Of a stretch of DNA of 64,000 nucleotides, positions 1 through 7,017 are shown piece by piece. Position numbers and translations under genes: made by a program. Under the pieces are notes generated by a model, which did no database searches, was not told the DNA's origin, and saw nothing but the letters and a program-made list of their open reading frames with translations. This DNA comes from Hoylesella buccalis ATCC 35310 (lineage in GTDB: Bacteria; Bacteroidota; Bacteroidia; Bacteroidales; Bacteroidaceae): positions 248,001 to 312,000 of the forward strand of contig NZ_CP102287.1 of the NCBI RefSeq assembly GCF_025151385.1. The letters run 5' to 3'. Position 1 is the stretch's first letter; each line of letters begins with the position of its first letter.

Positions 1-19
1 TGCTTCCTAAATATTTCAT
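1..19 (-). CDS. Start of a gene running off the left edge, possibly an adenine methylase
   Basis: An ATG (complement of 17-19) begins two bases before the stop codon of the upstream methyltransferase piece. Only six residues, MKYLGS, are inside the window. That start resembles D12-class (Dam-type) adenine methylases, which often begin MKYxGSK and often sit beside C5 methyltransferases in phages. Six residues cannot prove it. Confidence 0.3.
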
Positions 20-604
20 CTAAAATAATTTTAATTGCACAGGCTCTTGTTTCCTTTTCTCTTCTTCTGGAACACCTATGAACAAGTTCCTAAACATGTA
101 CTCCATACAACTCACAACTATGCTGTTGCCAGCTAATTTGTAAAGTTGTGAATTGGATATAAGCTGCAATCCTTTCTCATTCTTGGCATTTAGCAGTTTG
201 TCTGTTTTTTCTTCATCCACATCCATAAGGCGGAAACACTCTCTTGGAGTCAATTTCCTTATCCTAAATCGTTTGCCAACATATTCTTTCGGTAGCTTTA
301 ACTTCACTGCTACCTCTTCTGTTATCAACTTGCCTTTGTTTCTCTTTTGTTCTATCATAATATTGTCTTTTGTCAAAGTGGTGATACAATTAGAGACCCC
401 ATCTTTGCGAGGTCTCCATATACGCATGTCTTGCCTTTTGATACCTAATTCGTGCCTCTCATATTCTTTCCTGACAGATTTCCCAAATTCTGTCCGCTCA
501 GATCTCATTATTTGCGGAAACTCCATAAGCAGATAGTCTTTTTGAACTGTTGTGATGGTATTTGAATTGCCACTATTGTTAATCTCAATTCTCTGTCTAT
601 ACAT
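20..604 (-). CDS. C5-cytosine DNA methyltransferase, C-terminal half (TRD, motifs IX-X)
   Basis: This 194-residue product is the DNA-recognition and C-terminal half of a C5-cytosine methyltransferase. Two target-recognition-like cores are visible at about residues 11-28 (NSNTITTVQKDYLLME) and 68-85 (GVSNCITTLTKDNIMIE). Motif IX follows at about 116-128 (RKLTPRECFRLM) and motif X at about 150-165 (SNSQLYKLAGNSIVV). The catalytic motifs I-VIII are absent. They lie 3.6 kb upstream in the 4201-4944 gene, and the short cassette frames and a second methyltransferase lie between. The start is the ATG directly after an in-frame TGA at 605-607, so reading through that stop would join it to the short frame upstream. 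It may act in trans with the catalytic half, as two-subunit C5 enzymes do, or be a remnant. Confidence 0.75.
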   Translation of the reverse strand: MYRQRIEINNSGNSNTITTVQKDYLLMEFPQIMRSERTEFGKSVRKEYERHELGIKRQDMRIWRPRKDGVSNCITTLTKDNIMIEQKRNKGKLITEEVAVKLKLPKEYVGKRFRIRKLTPRECFRLMDVDEEKTDKLLNAKNEKGLQLISNSQLYKLAGNSIVVSCMEYMFRNLFIGVPEEEKRKQEPVQLKLF

Positions 605-676
605 TCAACGAGACCTATTTCGCTCACTTGAATTATCGGGGTCCCTCCCGCGACTTGCGCATGATAAAAACATCAT
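605..676 (-). pseudogene. 23-residue piece of a TRD-like cassette, in frame with the C-terminal half
   Basis: The ATG overlaps the TGA of the previous cassette by one base (TGATG). The frame runs 23 codons to a TGA that is immediately followed, in the same frame, by the ATG of the motif IX-X piece. Its RGRDPDNSSERN stretch resembles the start of a recognition cassette that would continue into RQRIEINNSGNSNTITT. The TGA is therefore probably a nonsense codon splitting one cassette, though reinitiation is possible. Confidence 0.45.
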
Positions 677-837
677 CACTCTATCACCACTATTTTCGGC
701 TGCAGATTTCCGCCTTGCATCGCATTAAGGGTAGGACTTACCCCATCAACGCTGTAAACCCTGCCTCTCTGTTTGTCTGGACGTTTGACAGACGGTGGAC
801 AAATATTGAATAGCTGAATTATTTTTGCCTTAGTCAT
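676..837 (-). CDS. Small TRD-like cassette protein (53 aa)
   Basis: A 53-residue frame whose ATG lies inside the last codons of the previous frame (an 8-bp ATGACTAA overlap), which suggests translational coupling. Its core RGRVYSVDGVSPTLNAM followed by GGNLQPKIVVIE matches the S-P-T-L target-recognition core of multi-repeat C5-methyltransferases. It has no catalytic motif. It reads as one of about nine recognition cassettes between the catalytic and C-terminal halves. The product has not been recognised as a named family; the function is inferred. Confidence 0.6.
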   Translation of the reverse strand: MTKAKIIQLFNICPPSVKRPDKQRGRVYSVDGVSPTLNAMQGGNLQPKIVVIE

Positions 838-979
838 AAACTATCATAATTTTAGGTTCAACACCAGCGTGGCAACCACAAGAAATGGTTGGAGATACAC
901 CGTTCAATGAATATACATATCCGTTTTGTGAACTATGCCAGACTTTGAACAGCTTGATTATCCTGTTGTTTTTAGTCAT
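830..979 (-). CDS. Small TRD-like cassette protein (49 aa)
   Basis: A 49-residue frame starting MTKNNR within the end of the upstream cassette (ATGACTAA overlap, 8 bp) and ending in the same sequence, which starts the next one. Its core NGYVYSLNGVSPTIS, then HAGVEPKIMIVYD, is a close relative of the 676-837 cassette: a G-x-V-Y-S turn, S-P-T-I/L, then a P-K-I hydrophobic strand. It has no catalytic residues. It is probably a separately translated target-recognition unit, or one unit of a broken multi-repeat enzyme. Confidence 0.6.
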   Translation of the reverse strand: MTKNNRIIKLFKVWHSSQNGYVYSLNGVSPTISCGCHAGVEPKIMIVYD

Positions 980-1118
980 ACACTTCCAATATAAAGTAAT
1001 CTGCACTTCCTCCACTTCCCGTGTACGTAGTGACTGTATTCGCTATATCTTTAATGTGTCTCGAAGATACTTTCCCTCTATAATCTCTCGTATATCCAAG
1101 CCCGTGAATTTTAGTCAT
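972..1118 (-). CDS. Small TRD-like cassette protein (48 aa)
   Basis: A 48-residue frame, first of the three linked by ATGACTAA overlaps. Its core HIKDIANTVTTYTGSGGSAD, then YFILEVYD, has the same N-T-V/I-T-T then hydrophobic-strand pattern as the cassette in the 20-604 gene. The IHGLGYTRDYRGKVSSRH start is mirrored by a degenerate copy at 3703-3820. It begins 55 bp after the end of the interrupted permuted methyltransferase. The intervening 1119-1173 is AT-rich and may carry a promoter, but no clear box is seen. Confidence 0.6.
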   Translation of the reverse strand: MTKIHGLGYTRDYRGKVSSRHIKDIANTVTTYTGSGGSADYFILEVYD

Positions 1119-1173
1119 ATACTTATATTAAAAATCGCAAAGAAACGGAATTGATATATTATATCATTTTACT

Positions 1174-1809
1174 TTATCTCTTACACATTAATTTGTAAAA
1201 TGTGTCAAAGTCAATCTCTCTTTTCATTAGCAAATCATATAATGATGGCTTTTTAAAATCCCACTCCATTTTAAATTCACCACCACCATCTTCTATTTTA
1301 GGTAAGTTTCCTATTGCATCCTTTACAGTTACTGGCTCTGGCAAGTACATATCATTGTATTCAAATAAAGGCTCTGGTTGTTCAATTTTTATATTTTCAT
1401 CCAATGAACCAATGATAAACACTCGCTTGCGTTTTTGAGGAACACCATACCACATTGAATTGAGTTTTAATGGTTTACCAATATAATATCCCTCATCTCT
1501 AAATGAATGAACTATATCTTTAATCACCTCGCCATTTTCCATTGTTAAGATTCCCATTACATTCTCCATGACAAAGAATTTCGGTTTCAAAACTCTAACG
1601 ATAGAAACAAATTCTCTAAAAAGTTGATTACGCTTATCTATTGGATTACGCAACCCTGCATAAGAAAAACCTTGACAAGGAGGGCCTCCAAGGATAACAT
1701 CAACCTGATTTTCTCCGCATGCTGTGAAAATCTTTTGCTTGGTGTCATCTTTTATAATATCACCAAGGATAAACTTTCCCTCACTTGCATGTTTTGAATG
1801 ATTGAATTT
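1174..1809 (-). pseudogene. Permuted C5-methyltransferase, catalytic part (motifs IV-VIII), cut off by the IS
   Basis: This 3' fragment holds the catalytic core of a C5-cytosine methyltransferase: motif IV with the catalytic cysteine (GGPPCQGFSYAG), motif VI (FVMENVMG) and motif VIII (VPQKRKRVFIIG). It then ends in a normal stop after KLMCKR without any recognition domain or motifs IX-X. Those are encoded upstream at 3307-3702, so the gene is circularly permuted. The IS4-family element at 1810-3167 separates this part from its motif I. Removing the IS and one copy of the 9-bp duplication joins ...SNKFN to HSKHASEGK in frame, so the insertion is clean. A GTG in the IS end could restart translation here, but the product would lack the cofactor motif I. 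Confidence 0.85.
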
Positions 1810-3167
1810 CACTACTGTCCACGAAAACCCTTTAACATTTCAAAAAGTAACAAATTGATAGTTACCCATCAAAATTGAGGCAGAGCTGCAGGTTTTTTCC
1901 TTCAGTAAATTCTTCCTCTTTCTGTTCAATGAGCAAGTCACACAATGGCATTTTTGTCAACAATGCCGTGCTTAAAATTCTTAGAACATCATAGGTTTGA
2001 AGCTTTAGCCCCATACATTCTTGTACGATAACGACAAGACAATATGCAATGATAGCTGCATAGATTTGTATTTTTACAGCATTCTCCGAGGTTCCATAAA
2101 ACTCTTTGATGCGCAGATGTTGCTTCAGCCATTTGAAGAACAGTTCTACTCTCCATCTGTATTTGTAAAGCATAGCAACCTGTTCCGCTGTAATTTCAAA
2201 ATTGTTCGTGTAAAATACAAATGTCCTATTACCATCATAGTCATAGAATACCACTCGTCGAAGTTTATTTGGATATTGCTTCTTAGTCTTGTATCCCTTG
2301 AAACGTATAATTTGGTCAGCCATAATTCCAGATGAAGGGTTGTTGTATTCTTTATCCTCTATGACCTCAAACGGCATTTTATGCTTCTCTCTCACGACAA
2401 AGTAAGCTTCTGCTCCTTCTATTATATAAAGTTTCCTAGTTGCCATATACGCTCTGTCAAATATATAGAAACTCTCTTTCTCATAGGGAATTAGCTCCAT
2501 CACTTGAGAATCGTGAACTGAAGCGTCTGTAATGACAGAAAATGTCGGAATGTCTGTCTTCACGTCATACAGTTCATGCAATTTCACTCCTCCTTTCCCA
2601 TGATGCAGTTTAGTCCACCAGTATACAGAAAGGCACAATGATATTGTTGAGGAGTCAAACGCATAGACATTGTTCGATATGAAGAAGTCCTTGACGACTC
2701 CTCGTTTCTCTCTTGCTATGGAAACCATCTTGTCTGCAAACTCTTGGAATATCTTGACTTCGCGTATTTCATTGGCCTTGCTCAAATTGCTTCTACTGAC
2801 ATTCTTTCCAAAACCAAGATGGTGGAACGCTGACTTGAACGGAGTGATGGTTACAATAAGGTCTCGTAATCCCTCACGATTAGACAACTGACCAAATAGA
2901 AGAACCATCAGATGATTCCAACAAGTGAAACTCTTCACATATTTATTACCTTCATACTTTTTTATCAACCATTTGAAATGGTCTGTCGGCAGAAAGTCGC
3001 ACAGCTGTGAAAATACGTATCGACCTTTGTTCATAAGTATCTGCTTTCAAATTGTAATTTGTGGCAAAGATACTCTTTTCAAAAGTAGGGAGTCTATTTT
3101 ATCTCCTACAAGCTTGTATTTATAGGCGTTTCAAGAGATTATTAAAAGATTTTCGTGGACAGTAGTG
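1810..3167 (-). mobile_element. IS4-family insertion sequence, copy 1 (1358 bp)
   Basis: The element is bounded by inverted repeats beginning CACTACTGTCCACGAAAA at both ends and flanked by a perfect 9-bp target duplication ATTGAATTT (1801-1809 and 3168-3176). It encodes one 390-aa transposase on the minus strand and has interrupted the permuted C5-methyltransferase. A second copy lies at 50073-51431 and encodes an identical transposase. In the stretch upstream of the transposase gene I see one difference, a T4 run here against T5 in the other copy. A TATCTTTG -7 box lies within the element upstream of the transposase gene. Confidence 0.95.
1862..3034 (-). CDS. IS4-family transposase (DUF4372-type N-terminus)
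   Basis: A 390-residue DDE transposase. The N-terminal region (FSQLCDFLPTDHFKW) is the DUF4372-type domain common in Bacteroidota IS4 elements. The catalytic residues are visible as the first Asp in VYAFDSSTISL, the second in YIFDRAYM, and the Y-x2-R-x3-E-x6-K signature YKYRWRVELFFKWLK near residue 300. It catalyses cut-and-paste transposition of its own element. It is intact and identical in protein sequence to the copy at 50207-51379, so it is probably recently active. Confidence 0.95.
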   Translation of the reverse strand: MNKGRYVFSQLCDFLPTDHFKWLIKKYEGNKYVKSFTCWNHLMVLLFGQLSNREGLRDLIVTITPFKSAFHHLGFGKNVSRSNLSKANEIREVKIFQEFADKMVSIAREKRGVVKDFFISNNVYAFDSSTISLCLSVYWWTKLHHGKGGVKLHELYDVKTDIPTFSVITDASVHDSQVMELIPYEKESFYIFDRAYMATRKLYIIEGAEAYFVVREKHKMPFEVIEDKEYNNPSSGIMADQIIRFKGYKTKKQYPNKLRRVVFYDYDGNRTFVFYTNNFEITAEQVAMLYKYRWRVELFFKWLKQHLRIKEFYGTSENAVKIQIYAAIIAYCLVVIVQECMGLKLQTYDVLRILSTALLTKMPLCDLLIEQKEEEFTEGKNLQLCLNFDG

Positions 3168-3353
3168 ATTGAATTTATTGGATTCAAATACACTTTCATC
3201 AAACTCATTGGCTGCTAATAGGTTAAAACCATTTTGAATAAAACCTTCTGACAACCCTCCACACCCAGCAAAAAGGTCTACAATGTTGTAACTATCCAAA
3301 TGGGGCTTAATGAGTGTAGAAATCATTCTTGCCAATAATGGGGGGGACAGCAT
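3168..3353 (-). pseudogene. Permuted C5-methyltransferase, motif I part, frameshifted and IS-truncated
   Basis: This piece encodes PPLLARMISTLIKPH (the end of motif X) running straight into motif I (NIVDLFAGCGGLSEGF) and AANEFDES (motif II). It is then cut off at NKFN by the IS. It overlaps the upstream frame by 47 bases. The two frames meet at a run of seven C (coding strand, 3340-3346). With six C they form one continuous QIGNAVPPLLARMIS motif X. The ATG at 3353 could let this half start on its own. Motif X directly before motif I is the hallmark of a circular permutation. Confidence 0.8.
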
Positions 3354-3702
3354 TCCCTATTTGTTTGTATATCCCAGATTTTGTTTTTGATATAAACACA
3401 AAATCATCAGGGAAAGACTGAAGACGAGCTGCTTCACGAGTCGAAATAACACGCATCTGATCTGGATGGAGATTACAACCGTTAGGTACGCGATTAAAAA
3501 AAGTGTTTATGGTATAACTTGGTTTATCCCATGTAAGACGCCCGTAATAGGTTGTTCTGCCTCCGCTGTCACGAATCTTAGCAAGTCTATTATCCGTAAT
3601 CTCTTCAGGAATATCCTTCCAGTTGCCACCAGCTGGGATATGCCGTGCCATATCTACTTCATGTTGGCACATCTTGTAAGCTACATGATTATATAGTTTC
3701 AT
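3307..3702 (-). pseudogene. Permuted C5-methyltransferase, N-terminal part (TRD, motifs IX-X)
   Basis: This frame holds what is normally the C-terminal third of a C5-methyltransferase. It starts with the NHVAYKM stretch, the HIPAGGNWKDIPEE and YGRLTWDKPSYTIN recognition region, motif IX (STREAARLQSFPDDF) and the start of motif X (YKQIGNAVPP). It then goes out of frame into IIGKNDFYTH and stops. The start at 3702 (MKLYNH) is chosen over a TTG at 3729. The natural order would be motifs I-VIII and then this segment. Here it comes first, so the intact ancestral protein was about 400 residues in the order TRD-IX-X-I-IV-VI-VIII, the arrangement known for M.BssHII-type enzymes. Confidence 0.8.
3340..3346. 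repeat. Seven-base G/C homopolymer at the MTase frameshift point
   Basis: A run of seven G on the plus strand (seven C on the coding strand) lies exactly where the two frames of the permuted methyltransferase separate. Six C would restore the canonical GNAVPPLLA of motif X. Seven puts the upstream frame into a premature stop. This is a natural slippage site. Confidence 0.8.
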
Positions 3703-3820
3703 AATATTGCTTTTACACCGATATTTCAATCTTAACCAGTTAATTATGTGAACAGCATTCTATGCTTTGCAGTCACTTTTATCCTAAACAGTTTCTTGTG
3801 CAACCAAATCCATAAATCAT
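3703..3820 (-). pseudogene. Degenerate TRD-like cassette
   Basis: An ATG at 3820 overlaps the TGA of the cassette above (ATGA) and gives only 13 codons (MIYGFGCTRNCLG) before a stop at 3779. Allowing one frame change, the sequence continues IKVTAKH, which parallels the IHGLGYTRDYRGKVSSRH start of the 972-1118 cassette. It looks like a decayed copy of that cassette, truncated where the permuted methyltransferase was inserted. Confidence 0.5.
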
Positions 3821-3969
3821 AATGCGCATTCTATTATTCCAGTTATCCCATGTCCCGTGCCGACAAAAACACTATCAAAACCACACTTACCATATACTCC
3901 ACGAATAGTGGATGACACTTCCTTGCCATTTCTCTTATAGCCATTGATTACAAAAACATCTTCAATCAT
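3817..3969 (-). CDS. Small TRD-like cassette protein (50 aa)
   Basis: A 50-residue frame starting MIEDVFVINGYKRNGKE, three bases after the stop of the cassette above and overlapping the degenerate cassette below by ATGA. Its core EVSSTIRGVYGKCG, followed by DSVFV and a closing hydrophobic GIIE strand, fits the S-x-T-I recognition core of this array. No catalytic residues are present. Function is inferred from pattern and position only. Confidence 0.55.
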   Translation of the reverse strand: MIEDVFVINGYKRNGKEVSSTIRGVYGKCGFDSVFVGTGHGITGIIECAL

Positions 3970-3972
3970 AAT

Positions 3973-4128
3973 TCACTCATAAATTTCTACCACTCCTGCT
4001 ATGGGGAAATGCGCTAACGAAACAAGGTTGGCACACCCCATGTTTTTCACACTCGCTGTTATCGTTGGGCTTGCCCCCCCCCTCATTACTTGCGGTATGA
4101 TGACGGCTTCCATTATCTTATTCTTCAT
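3973..4128 (-). CDS. Small TRD-like cassette protein with a G9 tract (51 aa)
   Basis: A 51-residue frame whose ATG lies 11 bases inside the end of the cassette above. Its core RGGASPTITASVKNMG, then LVSLAHFPIAGVVEIYE, fits the array consensus. The two glycines before the core are encoded by nine consecutive G. With nine the frame is open; with eight it stops after QAQR; with seven or ten it runs into an unrelated frame. The recognition core therefore depends on the tract length. Confidence 0.55.
   Translation of the reverse strand: MKNKIMEAVIIPQVMRGGASPTITASVKNMGCANLVSLAHFPIAGVVEIYE
4074..4082. repeat. Nine-base G/C homopolymer inside a TRD-like cassette
   Basis: Nine consecutive C on the plus strand (nine G on the coding strand) lie about 46 bases after the start codon of the 3973-4128 cassette and just before its S-P-T-I core. 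Tracts of this length commonly slip during replication. Confidence 0.85.
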
Positions 4129-4198
4129 TTATCACAAAGTTGTCATCTACACGACTGCCTGCCTTGCACCTTATGGCGCAGGCTATCCCTCCACCCAT
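4118..4198 (-). CDS. Very small TRD-like cassette (26 aa)
   Basis: A 26-residue frame beginning MGGGIACAIRCKAGSRVDDNF. Its ATG is three bases after the stop codon of the catalytic half. In single-chain members of this methyltransferase family an SxGGGIAxxIRCKAGSRVDDNF-like stretch follows the HNF motif directly. The TAA after HCHNFK therefore looks like the point where a once continuous protein was split. It ends overlapping the next cassette. Confidence 0.5.
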   Translation of the reverse strand: MGGGIACAIRCKAGSRVDDNFVINEE

Positions 4199-4200
4199 CC

Positions 4201-4944
4201 TTATTTGAAATTATGACAATGTGTCTTGTCTTCATTAACTCTGTTGAAATACTCAAGCGCCTTGTCAGACAGATAGTATTTCTCGTTCACTTTCTTCGGA
4301 CTTCCGTCCTCATTCTTCTCCACAATGTCTTTCAATCTCTTTTCAAGTGGAAAGGGTACGGGAAAGTGGAAGACTGGCATAGGTTCATCTTCTGTCTTCA
4401 ATATTGATATGCAGAACACCCTCTCTCTGTTCTGCGGCACACCAAAATCAGTAGCGTTGAGTACTTTCCAATAGTTGACATAACCGTAACTCTCAAGCTC
4501 GTCAAGCCACTTTTGAAACAATGGCATGAACTTCTTGCTTGTTAATGCCTTTACATTTTCAAGCATCAAGTATTTTGGCTTCTTTGCGAGAATTGCCTTT
4601 CTGCATTCCCATAGCAACGAACTGCGCGTGCCGCTCCCTTCCTCGCCACCTCGTTGCAGACCGCTTTGGCTGAAATCTTGGCAAGGCGATGAGAACGTAA
4701 ATAAATCAAAATCAGGAACTTTCGCCCAATCTATCTTCGATATGTCACCAAAGTTTCTGTCTTTGTATTGAGGGAATAGAACGTTATGCGCTTGTATGGC
4801 ATACTTGTCTATTTCTGACCAGCCAACAAGGTCATACTCGAAATCCTTGTCATATTTTTTCAATCTTTCCAATGCAAGACATTGACTATCGTACCCACTG
4901 AACGCAGTGAATACTTTTAATGGGTTCTCTTTGTCATATTTCAT
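4201..4944 (-). CDS. C5-cytosine DNA methyltransferase, catalytic half (motifs I-VIII)
   Basis: A 247-residue catalytic half that transfers a methyl group from SAM to cytosine C5. Motif I is VFTAFSGYDSQ (about residues 11-21), motif IV is SSPCQDFSQSG with catalytic Cys88, motif VI is MLENV (about 127-131), and motif VIII is QNRERVF (171-177). It stops after HCHNFK, just where the recognition domain should begin. That domain and motifs IX-X are encoded in separate frames downstream. The ATG overlaps the TGA of the small frame upstream (ATGA). It could be the alpha subunit of a split enzyme that pairs with the 20-604 product, or a truncated remnant. Confidence 0.8.
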   Translation of the reverse strand: MKYDKENPLKVFTAFSGYDSQCLALERLKKYDKDFEYDLVGWSEIDKYAIQAHNVLFPQYKDRNFGDISKIDWAKVPDFDLFTFSSPCQDFSQSGLQRGGEEGSGTRSSLLWECRKAILAKKPKYLMLENVKALTSKKFMPLFQKWLDELESYGYVNYWKVLNATDFGVPQNRERVFCISILKTEDEPMPVFHFPVPFPLEKRLKDIVEKNEDGSPKKVNEKYYLSDKALEYFNRVNEDKTHCHNFK

Positions 4945-5072
4945 TTTTCTATCTCTATTATCAATGGTGGTGATTTATAATCTGTTGCGAGCATGGTTGG
5001 TGCAAAAGATTTAGACATCCTTATGGCGCCAAAATGCTTGCACGGATTTGGCGTTAAAAAAAACTCATTCAT
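4941..5072 (-). CDS. Small TRD-like cassette protein upstream of the catalytic half (43 aa)
   Basis: A 43-residue frame overlapping both neighbours: its ATG lies eight bases inside the frame above, and its TGA overlaps the ATG of the catalytic half. The core MSKSFAPTMLATDYKSPPLIIE has the A-P-T-x-L-A-T-D-Y-K pattern seen in recognition domains of phage C5-methyltransferases. It is on the wrong side of the catalytic half to be a simple truncation product, which argues that cassettes can exist as free units here. Confidence 0.6.
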   Translation of the reverse strand: MNEFFLTPNPCKHFGAIRMSKSFAPTMLATDYKSPPLIIEIEK

Positions 5073-5244
5073 CTTCCAAAACTACTACCGCCGCGTCATT
5101 CAAGCTGGCTTTGATACACCTGCTTATTCCTCTAACTCCTCCTCTGAAAAACCTCTCTGAAGTACCTATGTACAGACCATCGTATGGGTAAAGCGGTTTG
5201 CCTTTGAAAATGATGTACGGTTCTCCATCTCTAACGTGAATCAT
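5065..5244 (-). CDS. Small cassette-like protein (59 aa)
   Basis: A 59-residue frame starting MIHVRDGEPYIIFKGK and overlapping the DUF4406 gene above by ATGA. Its second half, GVRGISRCIKASLNDAAVVVLEDE, follows the pattern of the array (G-x-S-x-x-I-x-A, then a hydrophobic strand). It is the first unit of the array in transcription order. The first half is not recognised. Confidence 0.55.
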   Translation of the reverse strand: MIHVRDGEPYIIFKGKPLYPYDGLYIGTSERFFRGGVRGISRCIKASLNDAAVVVLEDE

Positions 5245-5552
5245 ATTATCTCTGCAAATTCAAACATTATTTTTATTCCACACGCAAGCGCAGCGTTCAA
5301 CTCTGCACGACAGCCAACTGAACGTTCCCATTCTTGCCCCATAAGGATGTAGTCGCAATCGAGCAATAACTTAAAATCCGCTCTCATGTGTTCTGCGTGA
5401 GTGGCATTGAAGTCAACATCCCTGTCAAATGGTGAAACAGGTACAAAACCTTTATCTTCCAATTTGCGCTTCAACTCCGCTATTATTTCCCTAACATCAT
5501 CCAAATCTCTGTCTGTTATCGGCAGAGAGATGTAACATTTCTTTTCTCTCAT
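5241..5552 (-). CDS. DUF4406 protein (nucleoside 2-deoxyribosyltransferase-like fold)
   Basis: A 103-residue protein with the layout of DUF4406: CYISLPITDRD at the N-terminus, a helix with AELKRKLEDKGF, VSPFDRDV, an acidic LLDCDYILMG strand and a final GCRAELNAALACGIKI helix. The fold is related to nucleoside 2-deoxyribosyltransferases, and such proteins are common in phage early regions. No substrate can be named. It starts three bases after the methyltransferase upstream and overlaps the first cassette frame by four bases, so it sits in the same transcription unit as the modification genes. Confidence 0.75.
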   Translation of the reverse strand: MREKKCYISLPITDRDLDDVREIIAELKRKLEDKGFVPVSPFDRDVDFNATHAEHMRADFKLLLDCDYILMGQEWERSVGCRAELNAALACGIKIMFEFAEII

Positions 5553-5555
5553 AAT

Positions 5556-6323
5556 TCAAGCAAATAAATTTGGCTGTATCTTTTTCAACATAATGTCATT
5601 CGCTTTTTTGAAAAACTCTTTGTCTATCTCAAACCCAAAGGAACGACGACTCAAATTGGCAGCGGCAAGTAGCGAACTTCCACTTCCTGCCGTTGGGTCA
5701 ATCACTACATCTCCCTTGTCGGTAAACAGCTCTATCAGTCTTTCAAGCAATGGAACACTTTTCTGTGTAGGGTGTATTCGTGGTGTTTCCGTGTCTCTTG
5801 GATAATCCATGCAGTTAAACACCATTTGTCCCTTATTGTTAAACTTCGGGAGTTTGTTGCGATAAAGCAATACGCCATACTCGCAGTTGCCAACGATTTT
5901 CATATTGGCTTTCAATACCTGCGGAGAGTAGTTCTTGCGGAATACGAGCGGTATGTAGTGCATCAGTCCGTATTTCTTTCCTAATCTTATGAACTCAAAC
6001 TGCTGCTCGTATTCGCAGAATATTATCATGCACGGCGCCTTGCCAGCTTCTTTTGGCTCTTTCATGAGCATCTGCGTACAGAAGTGAATAAACTCGGCTG
6101 GCTTGAACGAATAATCAGAATTAAAGAATGCTTTTTTTGCAAATTCACTCTCTCCATTCTTGTTATCTCCATTATTATACCATTGAGGATTTGAGCCATA
6201 CGCATTTTCACCTATACCGAACGGAACATCCGCTAAAATTAATTGAGCTTTCGGTATGTTATATTTCTTAAAATTCTGATATGAGTCGTTGAACAACTGC
6301 GGCTTTATCTTTTTGTCTATCAT
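5556..6323 (-). CDS. N6-adenine/N4-cytosine DNA methyltransferase
   Basis: A 255-residue amino-methyltransferase of the pfam N6_N4_Mtase group. The catalytic motif appears early as ADVPFG, a variant of DPPY. The SAM-binding motif I follows late (DPTAGSGSSLLAAANL), preceded by HPTQKSVPLLERLI, which gives the beta-type order. The start at 6323 (MIDKKIKP) is preferred because the upstream ATG at 6350 lies inside a hairpin. The VP in place of PP in the catalytic motif is unusual. No restriction enzyme is adjacent, so it is probably an orphan phage methylase that protects phage DNA. Confidence 0.85.
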   Translation of the reverse strand: MIDKKIKPQLFNDSYQNFKKYNIPKAQLILADVPFGIGENAYGSNPQWYNNGDNKNGESEFAKKAFFNSDYSFKPAEFIHFCTQMLMKEPKEAGKAPCMIIFCEYEQQFEFIRLGKKYGLMHYIPLVFRKNYSPQVLKANMKIVGNCEYGVLLYRNKLPKFNNKGQMVFNCMDYPRDTETPRIHPTQKSVPLLERLIELFTDKGDVVIDPTAGSGSSLLAAANLSRRSFGFEIDKEFFKKANDIMLKKIQPNLFA

Positions 6324-6341
6324 TTTTTTACTCAAATAAAT

Positions 6342-6369
6342 AGCCACCATAGGTTGCCCTATGGCGGCT
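6342..6369 (-). terminator. Hairpin terminator after the Mom-like gene
   Basis: An AGCCxCCATAGG / CCTATGGxGGCT stem with a four-base loop lies between the Mom-like gene and the N6/N4 methylase. On the minus strand it is followed by TATTTGAGTAAAAAAATG. The U-tract is imperfect, so it may be only a weak terminator or a processing site. Confidence 0.5.
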
Positions 6370-6379
6370 TAAAACATTT

Positions 6380-6991
6380 CTATAACTTTTTGATAAATTT
6401 AAGCTGGAAGCCATCTGCCTTCCTTATGCCTGGTATCTTCTTTTGCAGAAAGTTCCAAGCTCTTGTGTTGTAACGATGCCACATCGTAACAGGATGGACT
6501 CGTTCTCCATCTGGAAGAATGTAGAAGTCTGCCTTTATCTTGCCTATAAGGGTATAGTTAGCTGCCTTATAAATCGTACCTGTCATCCCTGCTGACGTGT
6601 CGGCGTAGCTTATCAAGTACTTGATGTTTGGATATACTTTTTTAAGGAAATGATGAAGTAGGCTTATCACTATCGTCTCCGAATATTTTGGCATATCGTC
6701 AGAAAGCCACATTCTGTCAAATTCTCTTGTTTCGTCACAAGAATAATCTCCTTTTATTTTTGGTCTTATACCATAACCCAACTGCAATGCTCCGCTAACC
6801 TTACCCTTGTATAAGACAAGAAAAGAAAGAAACGAATTTTTTGTTACCTTATGAGAATAGTGGTGTTTCTTAATAATAGTATCAGCTTGTCCTTTCTCAC
6901 ATGATATAATTTCAATCTGTTTAGAAGGACAAGAAAATCCATTGCAGTATCCTAATAAATCAAATAGAGCAACCTTTTTAAGTTTTCTCAT
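6380..6991 (-). CDS. Mom-like DNA adenine modification protein
   Basis: A 203-residue protein resembling the Mom family (phage Mu Mom converts adenine to a carbamoylmethyl-type modification that blocks restriction). It has an acyltransferase-like layout: KKHHYSHKV near residue 42, FLVLYKGKVSGALQLGYG, EFDRMWLSDDMPKYSET, then KYLISYADTSAGMTGTIYKAANYTLIGK, and a closing MWHRYNTRAW region. Neighbouring C5 and N6/N4 methylases support a role in protecting phage DNA. The assignment rests on recalled family pattern, not on a search. Confidence 0.75.
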   Translation of the reverse strand: MRKLKKVALFDLLGYCNGFSCPSKQIEIISCEKGQADTIIKKHHYSHKVTKNSFLSFLVLYKGKVSGALQLGYGIRPKIKGDYSCDETREFDRMWLSDDMPKYSETIVISLLHHFLKKVYPNIKYLISYADTSAGMTGTIYKAANYTLIGKIKADFYILPDGERVHPVTMWHRYNTRAWNFLQKKIPGIRKADGFQLKFIKKL

Positions 6992-7017
6992 TGGTTAAAT
7001 GTTATATCAAATGCTGT

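Follow-up and report, generated by a model that had tools for sequence, protein, structure and literature searches.

Near the start of a 64,000-nucleotide stretch of Hoylesella buccalis ATCC 35310 (contig NZ_CP102287.1 of assembly GCF_025151385.1, positions 248,001 to 312,000; the whole stretch is called the window below), the two halves of a C5-methyltransferase share the minus strand with eight reading frames of only 26-59 codons, and the question this locus raises is whether such tiny frames are the remains of one decayed gene or small proteins in their own right. Our analysis points to the latter. The eight frames most likely encode separately translated target recognition domains (TRDs) rather than mere debris, and we consider it likely, albeit far from certain, that a phage C5-methyltransferase has here been split into a catalytic chain, a chain with motifs IX-X and TRD peptides of ~45-60 residues, each translated on its own. 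Support comes from TRD homology of the small frames (cassettes in the following), conservation of short frames, purifying selection, catalytic and IX-X chains without a recognised TRD and one exact cassette insertion or deletion (indel) at a junction repeat.

All eight small frames exist at the coordinates first given for them; they lie on the minus strand around two stretches that align to different parts of PF00145. The array reads as follows, with L and F numbers denoting loci and cassette families of the comparison described further below:

5065..5244, minus strand: cassette W1, ATG frame of 59 codons upstream of the catalytic half, TRD-like.
4941..5072, minus strand: cassette W2, ATG frame of 43 codons upstream of the catalytic half, TRD-like.
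4201..4944, minus strand: catalytic half with C5-methyltransferase motifs I-VIII (PF00145 positions 5-221, E 5e-53).
4118..4198, minus strand: probable partial cassette, ATG frame of 26 codons.
3973..4128, minus strand: cassette W4, free-standing TRD by homology, ATG frame of 51 codons.
3817..3969, minus strand: cassette W5, TRD-like, ATG frame of 50 codons.
972..1118, minus strand: cassette W6, free-standing TRD by homology, ATG frame of 48 codons.
830..979, minus strand: cassette W7, free-standing TRD by homology, 49 codons from its ATG (the open reading frame list begins at an upstream GTG).
676..837, minus strand: cassette W8, free-standing TRD by homology, ATG frame of 53 codons.
602..677, minus strand: remnant of the start of an F06 cassette, from a comparison of frames by eye (F06 is whole in L009).
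20..604, minus strand: motif IX-X half (PF00145 positions 184-322, E 1.5e-7).

Motifs I-VIII and IX-X are read as different frames, as in M.AquI-type enzymes, and TRD frames stand on both sides of the catalytic half, not within one polypeptide between motifs VIII and IX. PCQ, ENV and QNRER are readable in the translation of 4201..4944, in which the cassette-profile map recognised no cassette; ahead of motif IX-X (20..604) the same map places a truncated F06 and an F11 cassette, and the window's total by profile, judged from homology only, is seven free cassettes plus these two. The 26-codon frame (4118..4198) was matched by none of the cassette profiles and is similar, in a comparison made by eye only, to the end of the catalytic-part chain of L011. 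An S-x-T-[ILV] core, claimed at first for every frame, is strictly present in four of the eight (3973, 3817, 830, 676) and absent from the other four, with APTM in 4941, NTV in 972 and neither variant in 5065 or 4118. By their coordinates, two junctions have gaps (2 and 3 nt), whereas the others overlap by 8, 4, 11, 8 and 8 nt; W1 and the neighbouring DUF4406 gene overlap by 4 nt, and the starts of 972-1118, 830-979 and 676-837 each lie within the shared junction piece TATGACTAA.

Could frames of this size be there by chance? We compared each stretch with 1000 dinucleotide shuffles, counting frames of at least 40 codons. Between 676 and 1118 frames cover 100% (shuffle mean 11%), a cover reached in 0/1000 shuffles and a frame number reached in 2/1000, so that chance is excluded by composition alone. 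For 3817-4200 (cover 80%, reached in 6/1000; frame number in 40/1000) and 4945-5244 (cover 60%, reached in 38/1000; frame number in 187/1000), the latter stretch excluding the stop of 4941-5072 and being covered to 56% on the opposite strand, it is homology and selection, not composition, that decide whether the frames are real. Pfam returned no match for the eight small frames at E<=10, and Rfam nothing at gathering scores for positions 1-7000 of the window.

For homology we gathered loci with relatives of the catalytic half (20 viral contigs, 9 genome contigs and, of the 390 viral contigs that a profile search gave, the best 80) and dropped 13 profile-search loci that repeated earlier contigs, which left 95 sequences, window included; near-identical contigs (L108/L109/L139/L142, L085/L097, L090/L093/L094) were kept, and the counts below are not independent. 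Cassette profiles were seeded from the collected loci and the window's seven longer frames, so matches of the window to itself are trivial and only those elsewhere count; families were merged by single linkage, F01 and F02 being coarse. Catalytic and IX-X parts occur in one chain and in the usual order in 36 sequences, and single-chain variable regions match 73 of the 1147 small frames near split or permuted genes (E<1e-3).

Family profiles of six of the seven longer window frames also match catalytic- or IX-X-bearing frames of relatives. W1 (5065) resembles the variable region of single-chain L116 (48% over 31 aa, 3e-5), and its profile F08 matches L116 (1.4e-5) as well as the IX-X frames of L127 and L128. 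F21, a profile built from the W2 (4941) sequence alone, has seven matches in IX-X frames (best 1.9e-5, in L108 and L109) and four in free ones. For W4 (3973), profile F02 matches the single chains L107 (1.6e-14) and L102 (2.2e-14), and a narrower profile made of W4 and 15 relatives finds mostly free frames and no chain with a catalytic part. W6 (972) is 56% identical over 25 aa (4e-5) to the variable region of single-chain L032, its profile F04 matching L104, L032, L029 and L030, and the profile of family F01, to which W7 (830) belongs, matches single-chain L115 (6e-16) and L112 (2.1e-15). W5 (3817) has a profile (F09, from W5 and its L009 copy) that matches a frame of L154, and no match in a frame with a recognised catalytic or IX-X part, parts that were not searched for in L154. 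With tblastn, W8 (676-837) matches 94 of 50,697 annotated phage records (Streptococcus phages account for 65), and among the 15 matches listed all fall under methyltransferase genes. In annotation tables, which are all that we consulted here, the methyltransferase of Streptococcus phage Javan172 is entered as two neighbouring genes, and those of Pectobacterium phage PcaP2EGY and Anaeroplasmataceae phage NatCom_34063 as one gene each.

How are these cassettes arranged elsewhere? The same families are fused in some loci (L032: CAT-F01-F04-F06-IX) and separate frames in others, such as L078, where ten consecutive frames of 45-58 codons (5216 to 6622) have overlaps of 11 or 14 nt; a blastn search of phages with this array gave no match. 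Cassette matches occur in 83 loci among 98 sequences (the 95, window included, plus L151, L154 and L155), and four of the 83 are unclassed, including those three added ones, whose catalytic and IX-X frames were unsearched. Single-chain homologues with the same cassette families, which the original prediction had proposed to look for, make up 28 of the 83. In 15 loci the catalytic and IX-X frames are without a recognised cassette, every cassette being in other frames, and in five IX-X is fused ahead of the catalytic part. In 40 of the 83 (15 + 20 + 5) one or more recognised cassettes lie outside the catalytic and IX-X frames, a cassette being called free if it lies in another open frame, ATG or not; a stand-alone frame with an ATG near the profile start occurs at least once in 32 of 83 loci, a count biased by the ATG-frame seeds. 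The permuted chains of L020 and L024 are without TRD.

These architectures bear on two other explanations. One, the plain alternative from the outset, is decay, in which stops and frameshifts have broken up what was once a multispecific phage methyltransferase in a single chain, a few pieces of it possibly being active still. That single-chain relatives with the same families are so common would suit decay; the 15 loci without a recognised cassette in either main chain and the permuted L020 and L024 chains, which are without TRD, would not. The other sees the peptides as translated TRD homologues with a different role (decoys or regulators, for example) and not as methyltransferase subunits, which agrees with the fact that nothing but homology and position ties them to the enzyme. 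This we hold to be the least probable of the alternatives, since in those 15 loci the peptides lie next to catalytic and IX-X parts without a recognised cassette, and the enzymes there would otherwise be left with no part for recognition.

If the cassettes are instead separate TRD peptides, their frames should be preserved as such. Frame breaks are indeed not unique to this strain: L009, the nearest relative, with a catalytic half 95% identical to that of the window, keeps 5065, 3973 and 3817 as intact separate frames together with two further ones (two L009 cassettes are absent from the window) and is without 972-1118 and 830-979. Pooling the three cassettes intact in both, the ratio of nonsynonymous to synonymous substitution (dN/dS) is 0.19 (Fisher 2e-7; 0.21 with other trimming), the synonymous bias that conservation of small frames requires and not the lack of purifying selection that marks a pseudogene; this comparison covers three of the eight frames, and three of the remaining five are broken in L009. 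Singly, the values are 0.19 (5065), 0.12 (3973) and 0.39 (3817); the catalytic half has 0.04, DUF4406 0.15 and the IX-X frame 0.32. Two L012/L013 cassettes likewise give 0.19, and six L090/L093 cassettes 0.08.

Short relatives tell a similar story, found in searches that cover only gene predictions of 0.55-1.75 times the query length and in which fused relatives are not visible. W8 has 17 small-protein clusters, one of them the window's own, with 16 of 48-54 aa and one of 85 aa, and includes a 54-aa relative recorded from Prevotella disiens; W4 has 15 small-protein relatives of 48-56 aa, and the starts and ends of the W8 and W4 relatives mostly agree within a few residues. A profile of 12 F01 members finds 152 clusters at E<=1e-5, some of which may be ends of short contigs, and among them is P0051, a 48-aa protein near-identical to W7. 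In the 120 clusters listed for one profile, a Pfam domain is present in one and source names are attached to three (two 'hypothetical protein', one methyltransferase). Purifying selection on split frames and short relatives with mostly fixed ends both argue against decay.

The junctions are informative in the same respect. Among 72 close junctions in split loci, with near-identical phages counted, the overlap is 14 nt in 21 and 4 nt in 11, a recurrence of overlap lengths that decay would not lead one to expect. In a 14-nt junction, e.g. TATGAGACTGATTAA, one frame ends Y-E-T-D-stop and the next begins M-R-L-I, and the most frequent type of junction places the next cassette's ATG inside the codons TAT-GAN for a C-terminal Tyr-Glu or Tyr-Asp. 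By hand count the next frame is +1 in 45 of the 72, the other shifted frame in 20 and the same frame in 7. Such a bias, together with starts that are not enriched outside the profile seeds (see below), would fit recoding, whereby ribosomes slip at each junction, mostly by +1, and make one multi-TRD polypeptide. An ATG within a TAT-GAN pair, however, also yields a +1 bias, and we explain the bias by reuse of TAT-GAN as a start, frameshifting being a rival all the same. What is more, one chain is impossible across a second methyltransferase with its insertion sequence (IS) in the window or across an HNH gene in L090, on both sides of which cassettes stay open, and equally so where cassettes follow a chain that has IX-X ahead of the catalytic part; a long array like that of L078 would require many successive shifts. 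To our minds, recoding is therefore quite improbable, if marginally less so than a role outside the methyltransferase.

Gain and loss of cassettes among related phages, another point raised by the original prediction, is seen in L093 and L094, which agree at 1643 of 1670 aligned positions and differ in that L093 lacks exactly 145 nt, i.e. one whole cassette. The missing cassette starts with TATGAGACTGATTAAGG in L094 and L090, and the same 17 bases follow the gap, so that the indel is what recombination between junction repeats would leave. A whole-cassette difference of this kind is again hard to square with decay.

Several observations do weigh against separately translated, exchangeable TRDs and have to be set beside these results. 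Apart from the length limits of the protein searches, 5065, 4941, 3973, 3817, 972 and 830 have no tblastn match in annotated phages at E<=0.01. A close catalytic half is rare, being present in 3 of 299 genus genomes, the window's own included (small frames lie behind the catalytic part in both of the two looked at further, L154 and L155), and the permuted form was not found in the other 394 of 395 phylum genomes at E<=1e-60, the window's own catalytic half being the only one to reach this threshold. In a model of single-chain L092, residues 244-287 (the TRD region) fall below pLDDT 50, giving no structural support for docking. Not all selection estimates are low: a third L012/L013 pair has dN/dS 0.60 and L019/L024 0.59 (Fisher 0.04), and L078/L083 and L020/L024 are saturated and give no ratio, yet a significant synonymous excess. 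Some cassettes are plainly broken. The L009 unit for 4941-5072 has an internal stop and no ATG, the L009 units for 4118-4198 and 676-837 are without ATG, the window's F06 cassette ahead of IX-X is broken, and a 5-nt indel in an L093 run of C breaks a cassette that is open in L094; some splits in metagenome contigs may be sequencing errors.

Start codons belong here, too. An in-frame ATG near the profile start is found for 144 of 195 first-in-frame cassettes as against 68 and 75 in the other two frames; for non-seed cassettes the figures are 55 of 104 against 39 and 41, and fused cassettes have an ATG there in 57 of 105, so free ones outside the seeds do no better. We have accordingly dropped start-codon enrichment as support for own starts, as it is mostly built in by the ATG-frame seeds, and these counts do not decide between re-initiation, frameshifting and decay. 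The lack of enrichment outside the seeds suits decay, as do the broken cassettes (window ~602-677, L009, L093) and the IS that cuts the second methyltransferase in its middle. Decay is real, then, in the window and in relatives, and the array is a changing set of working and dead members; as the whole explanation we judge it, on balance, unlikely, though the least so of the three alternatives.

The claim that the cassettes are separate recognition peptides serving the catalytic and IX-X halves is thus supported, and its physical side - translation, docking, specificity and purpose - is what we infer. The cassettes probably act in trans as exchangeable specificity subunits. Since neighbouring cassettes are joined by stop/start overlaps (14 and 4 nt being commonest, and 8 nt in the window), their translation is probably coupled, and successive cassettes would be made by termination and re-initiation. 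Each may then dock where the catalytic and IX-X parts leave a gap, for which an N-terminal extension of ~100 residues ahead of IX-X, alike among L033, L075, L078, L083, L090 and L093 and without cassette match, might offer a docking part; it looks helical and this is a guess. Different cassettes would give one core different targets, with one methylated motif per cassette, and phage DNA would be protected against several restriction enzymes, alongside the Mom-family and N6/N4 methylase proteins described below. As a stop and a start come with every cassette and a short repeat can recur at junctions, a cassette could be gained or lost without disturbing its neighbours. In its full form, translationally coupled arrays would supply one catalytic core and one IX-X subunit with as many as ten or more interchangeable ~50-residue peptides, and phages would alter the set of motifs that they methylate through gain, loss or exchange of single cassettes at stop/start repeats; for this wider scenario we see the chances as slightly better than even.

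Arrays of relatives hold further elements. HNH endonuclease genes (L090:5941-6429, NUMOD4/HNH; L076:6614-7036) are situated amid cassettes or else where these give way to IX-X, as though the array were used by homing elements. An intein-like stretch (Hint_2, 9.9e-8; Intein_splicing below cut-off) interrupts the catalytic half at L025:207-1982 in frame, and on the 233-412 kb contigs L010, L069, L070 and L071 an IX-X frame of 72-85 codons stands bare, other frames there combining one cassette with IX-X.

The surroundings in the window consist of the second C5-methyltransferase, which lies between 3729 and 1174 on the minus strand, sits between two cassettes of the first and is not itself an array member, and of genes next to W1:

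3120..3729, minus strand: front part of the second C5-methyltransferase (PF00145 positions 210-313 and 1-43).
1862..3034, minus strand: IS transposase (DDE_Tnp_1 and DUF4372 by Pfam), splitting the second methyltransferase.
1174..1812, minus strand: remainder of the second C5-methyltransferase (PF00145 positions 44-194).
5241-5552, minus strand: DUF4406 (Pfam).
5556-6350, minus strand: N6/N4 methylase.
6380-6991, minus strand: Mom-family protein (PF25680, E 1.1e-37).

This second enzyme has a permuted order, the TRD/IX-X part (3307-3729) coming first, then the motif I part (3120-3353) and what follows it, and no such insertion separates the halves in L009. Another transposase copy, identical in 288 of 288 residues over the part compared, is found at L156:23-889, ~16 kb left of the window, and another C5-methyltransferase of the same genome, in two frames, just to the right (G000:C1:313818-314847). 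Beside the methyltransferases, the Mom-family protein represents another type of DNA modification within this prophage. By Pfam, DUF4406 genes also stand beside split or multi-TRD methyltransferases in L009 (5390-5704), L034 (6075-6509) and L151 (7257-7634). Within ~6 kb to the left of the window (locus L156) there are an integrase, a Rha/anti-repressor protein and a further N6/N4 methylase, and at 11-17 kb a DnaB-like helicase, a replication initiation protein and an anti-repressor; because of these integrase, anti-repressor, helicase and replication genes, the region is a prophage or its remnant.

What would this mean? The specificity of C5-methyltransferases is hard to change, the TRD being part of the chain. 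If our interpretation is true, the cassettes would form a collection of small recognition modules to be used with one fixed core, phages would have a means of tracking host restriction repertoires, and the peptides would be a small-protein family that annotation misses; it is a warning, too, that fragmented phage methyltransferase genes are not always pseudogenes. In the open-access literature (titles and the starts of abstracts, most subscription papers lying outside) we found no description of separately encoded TRD peptides for C5-methyltransferases.

Known systems nonetheless come close in parts. SPR, phi3T, H2 and their kin are described, in excerpts of PMC12707154, as multispecific phage C5-methyltransferases with their TRDs in one polypeptide; the window resembles them in having several TRDs for one core, and its cassette families occur in single-chain relatives, but in the window most TRDs occupy frames of their own. 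According to a reference title in PMC8936443, the phage C5-methyltransferase M.phiBssHII has its TRDs at separated locations and is thereby a precedent for TRDs outside the usual slot, albeit within one enzyme as opposed to the separate upstream TRD frames here. Motifs I-VIII and IX-X on separate chains are known from M.AquI, and fragments of split M.SssI complement each other, as stated in parts of PMC3404938. M.AquI and M.EcoHK31I are made of two chains, to which the window adds recognition frames of ~50 codons, and the variable region that M.AquI shares between its chains is not so shared in the window. Artificially split M.SssI and M.HhaI, whose inactive fragments assemble in vivo, are engineered and without a natural array of alternative TRD pieces. 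Because natural two-chain enzymes, split M.SssI, a multi-TRD phage enzyme and M.phiBssHII set precedents, the coupled-subunit steps proposed here seem feasible. Stand-alone TRD homologues of 175-240 aa have been reported for BsaXI (portions of PMC9159934), and HsdS has helical spacers between its TRDs (excerpts of PMC12707154). Like Type I HsdS and BsaXI-type subunits, the cassettes would place recognition in a separate chain, though the proteins themselves are different. The partners of HsdS (HsdM) and of BsaXI-type subunits are not known to be PF00145 enzymes, whereas the window's frames of 26-59 codons, without a Pfam match at the threshold given above, have a PF00145 partner. Should the cassettes act in trans, their logic would be that of specificity subunits as in Type I enzymes, but with much smaller parts.

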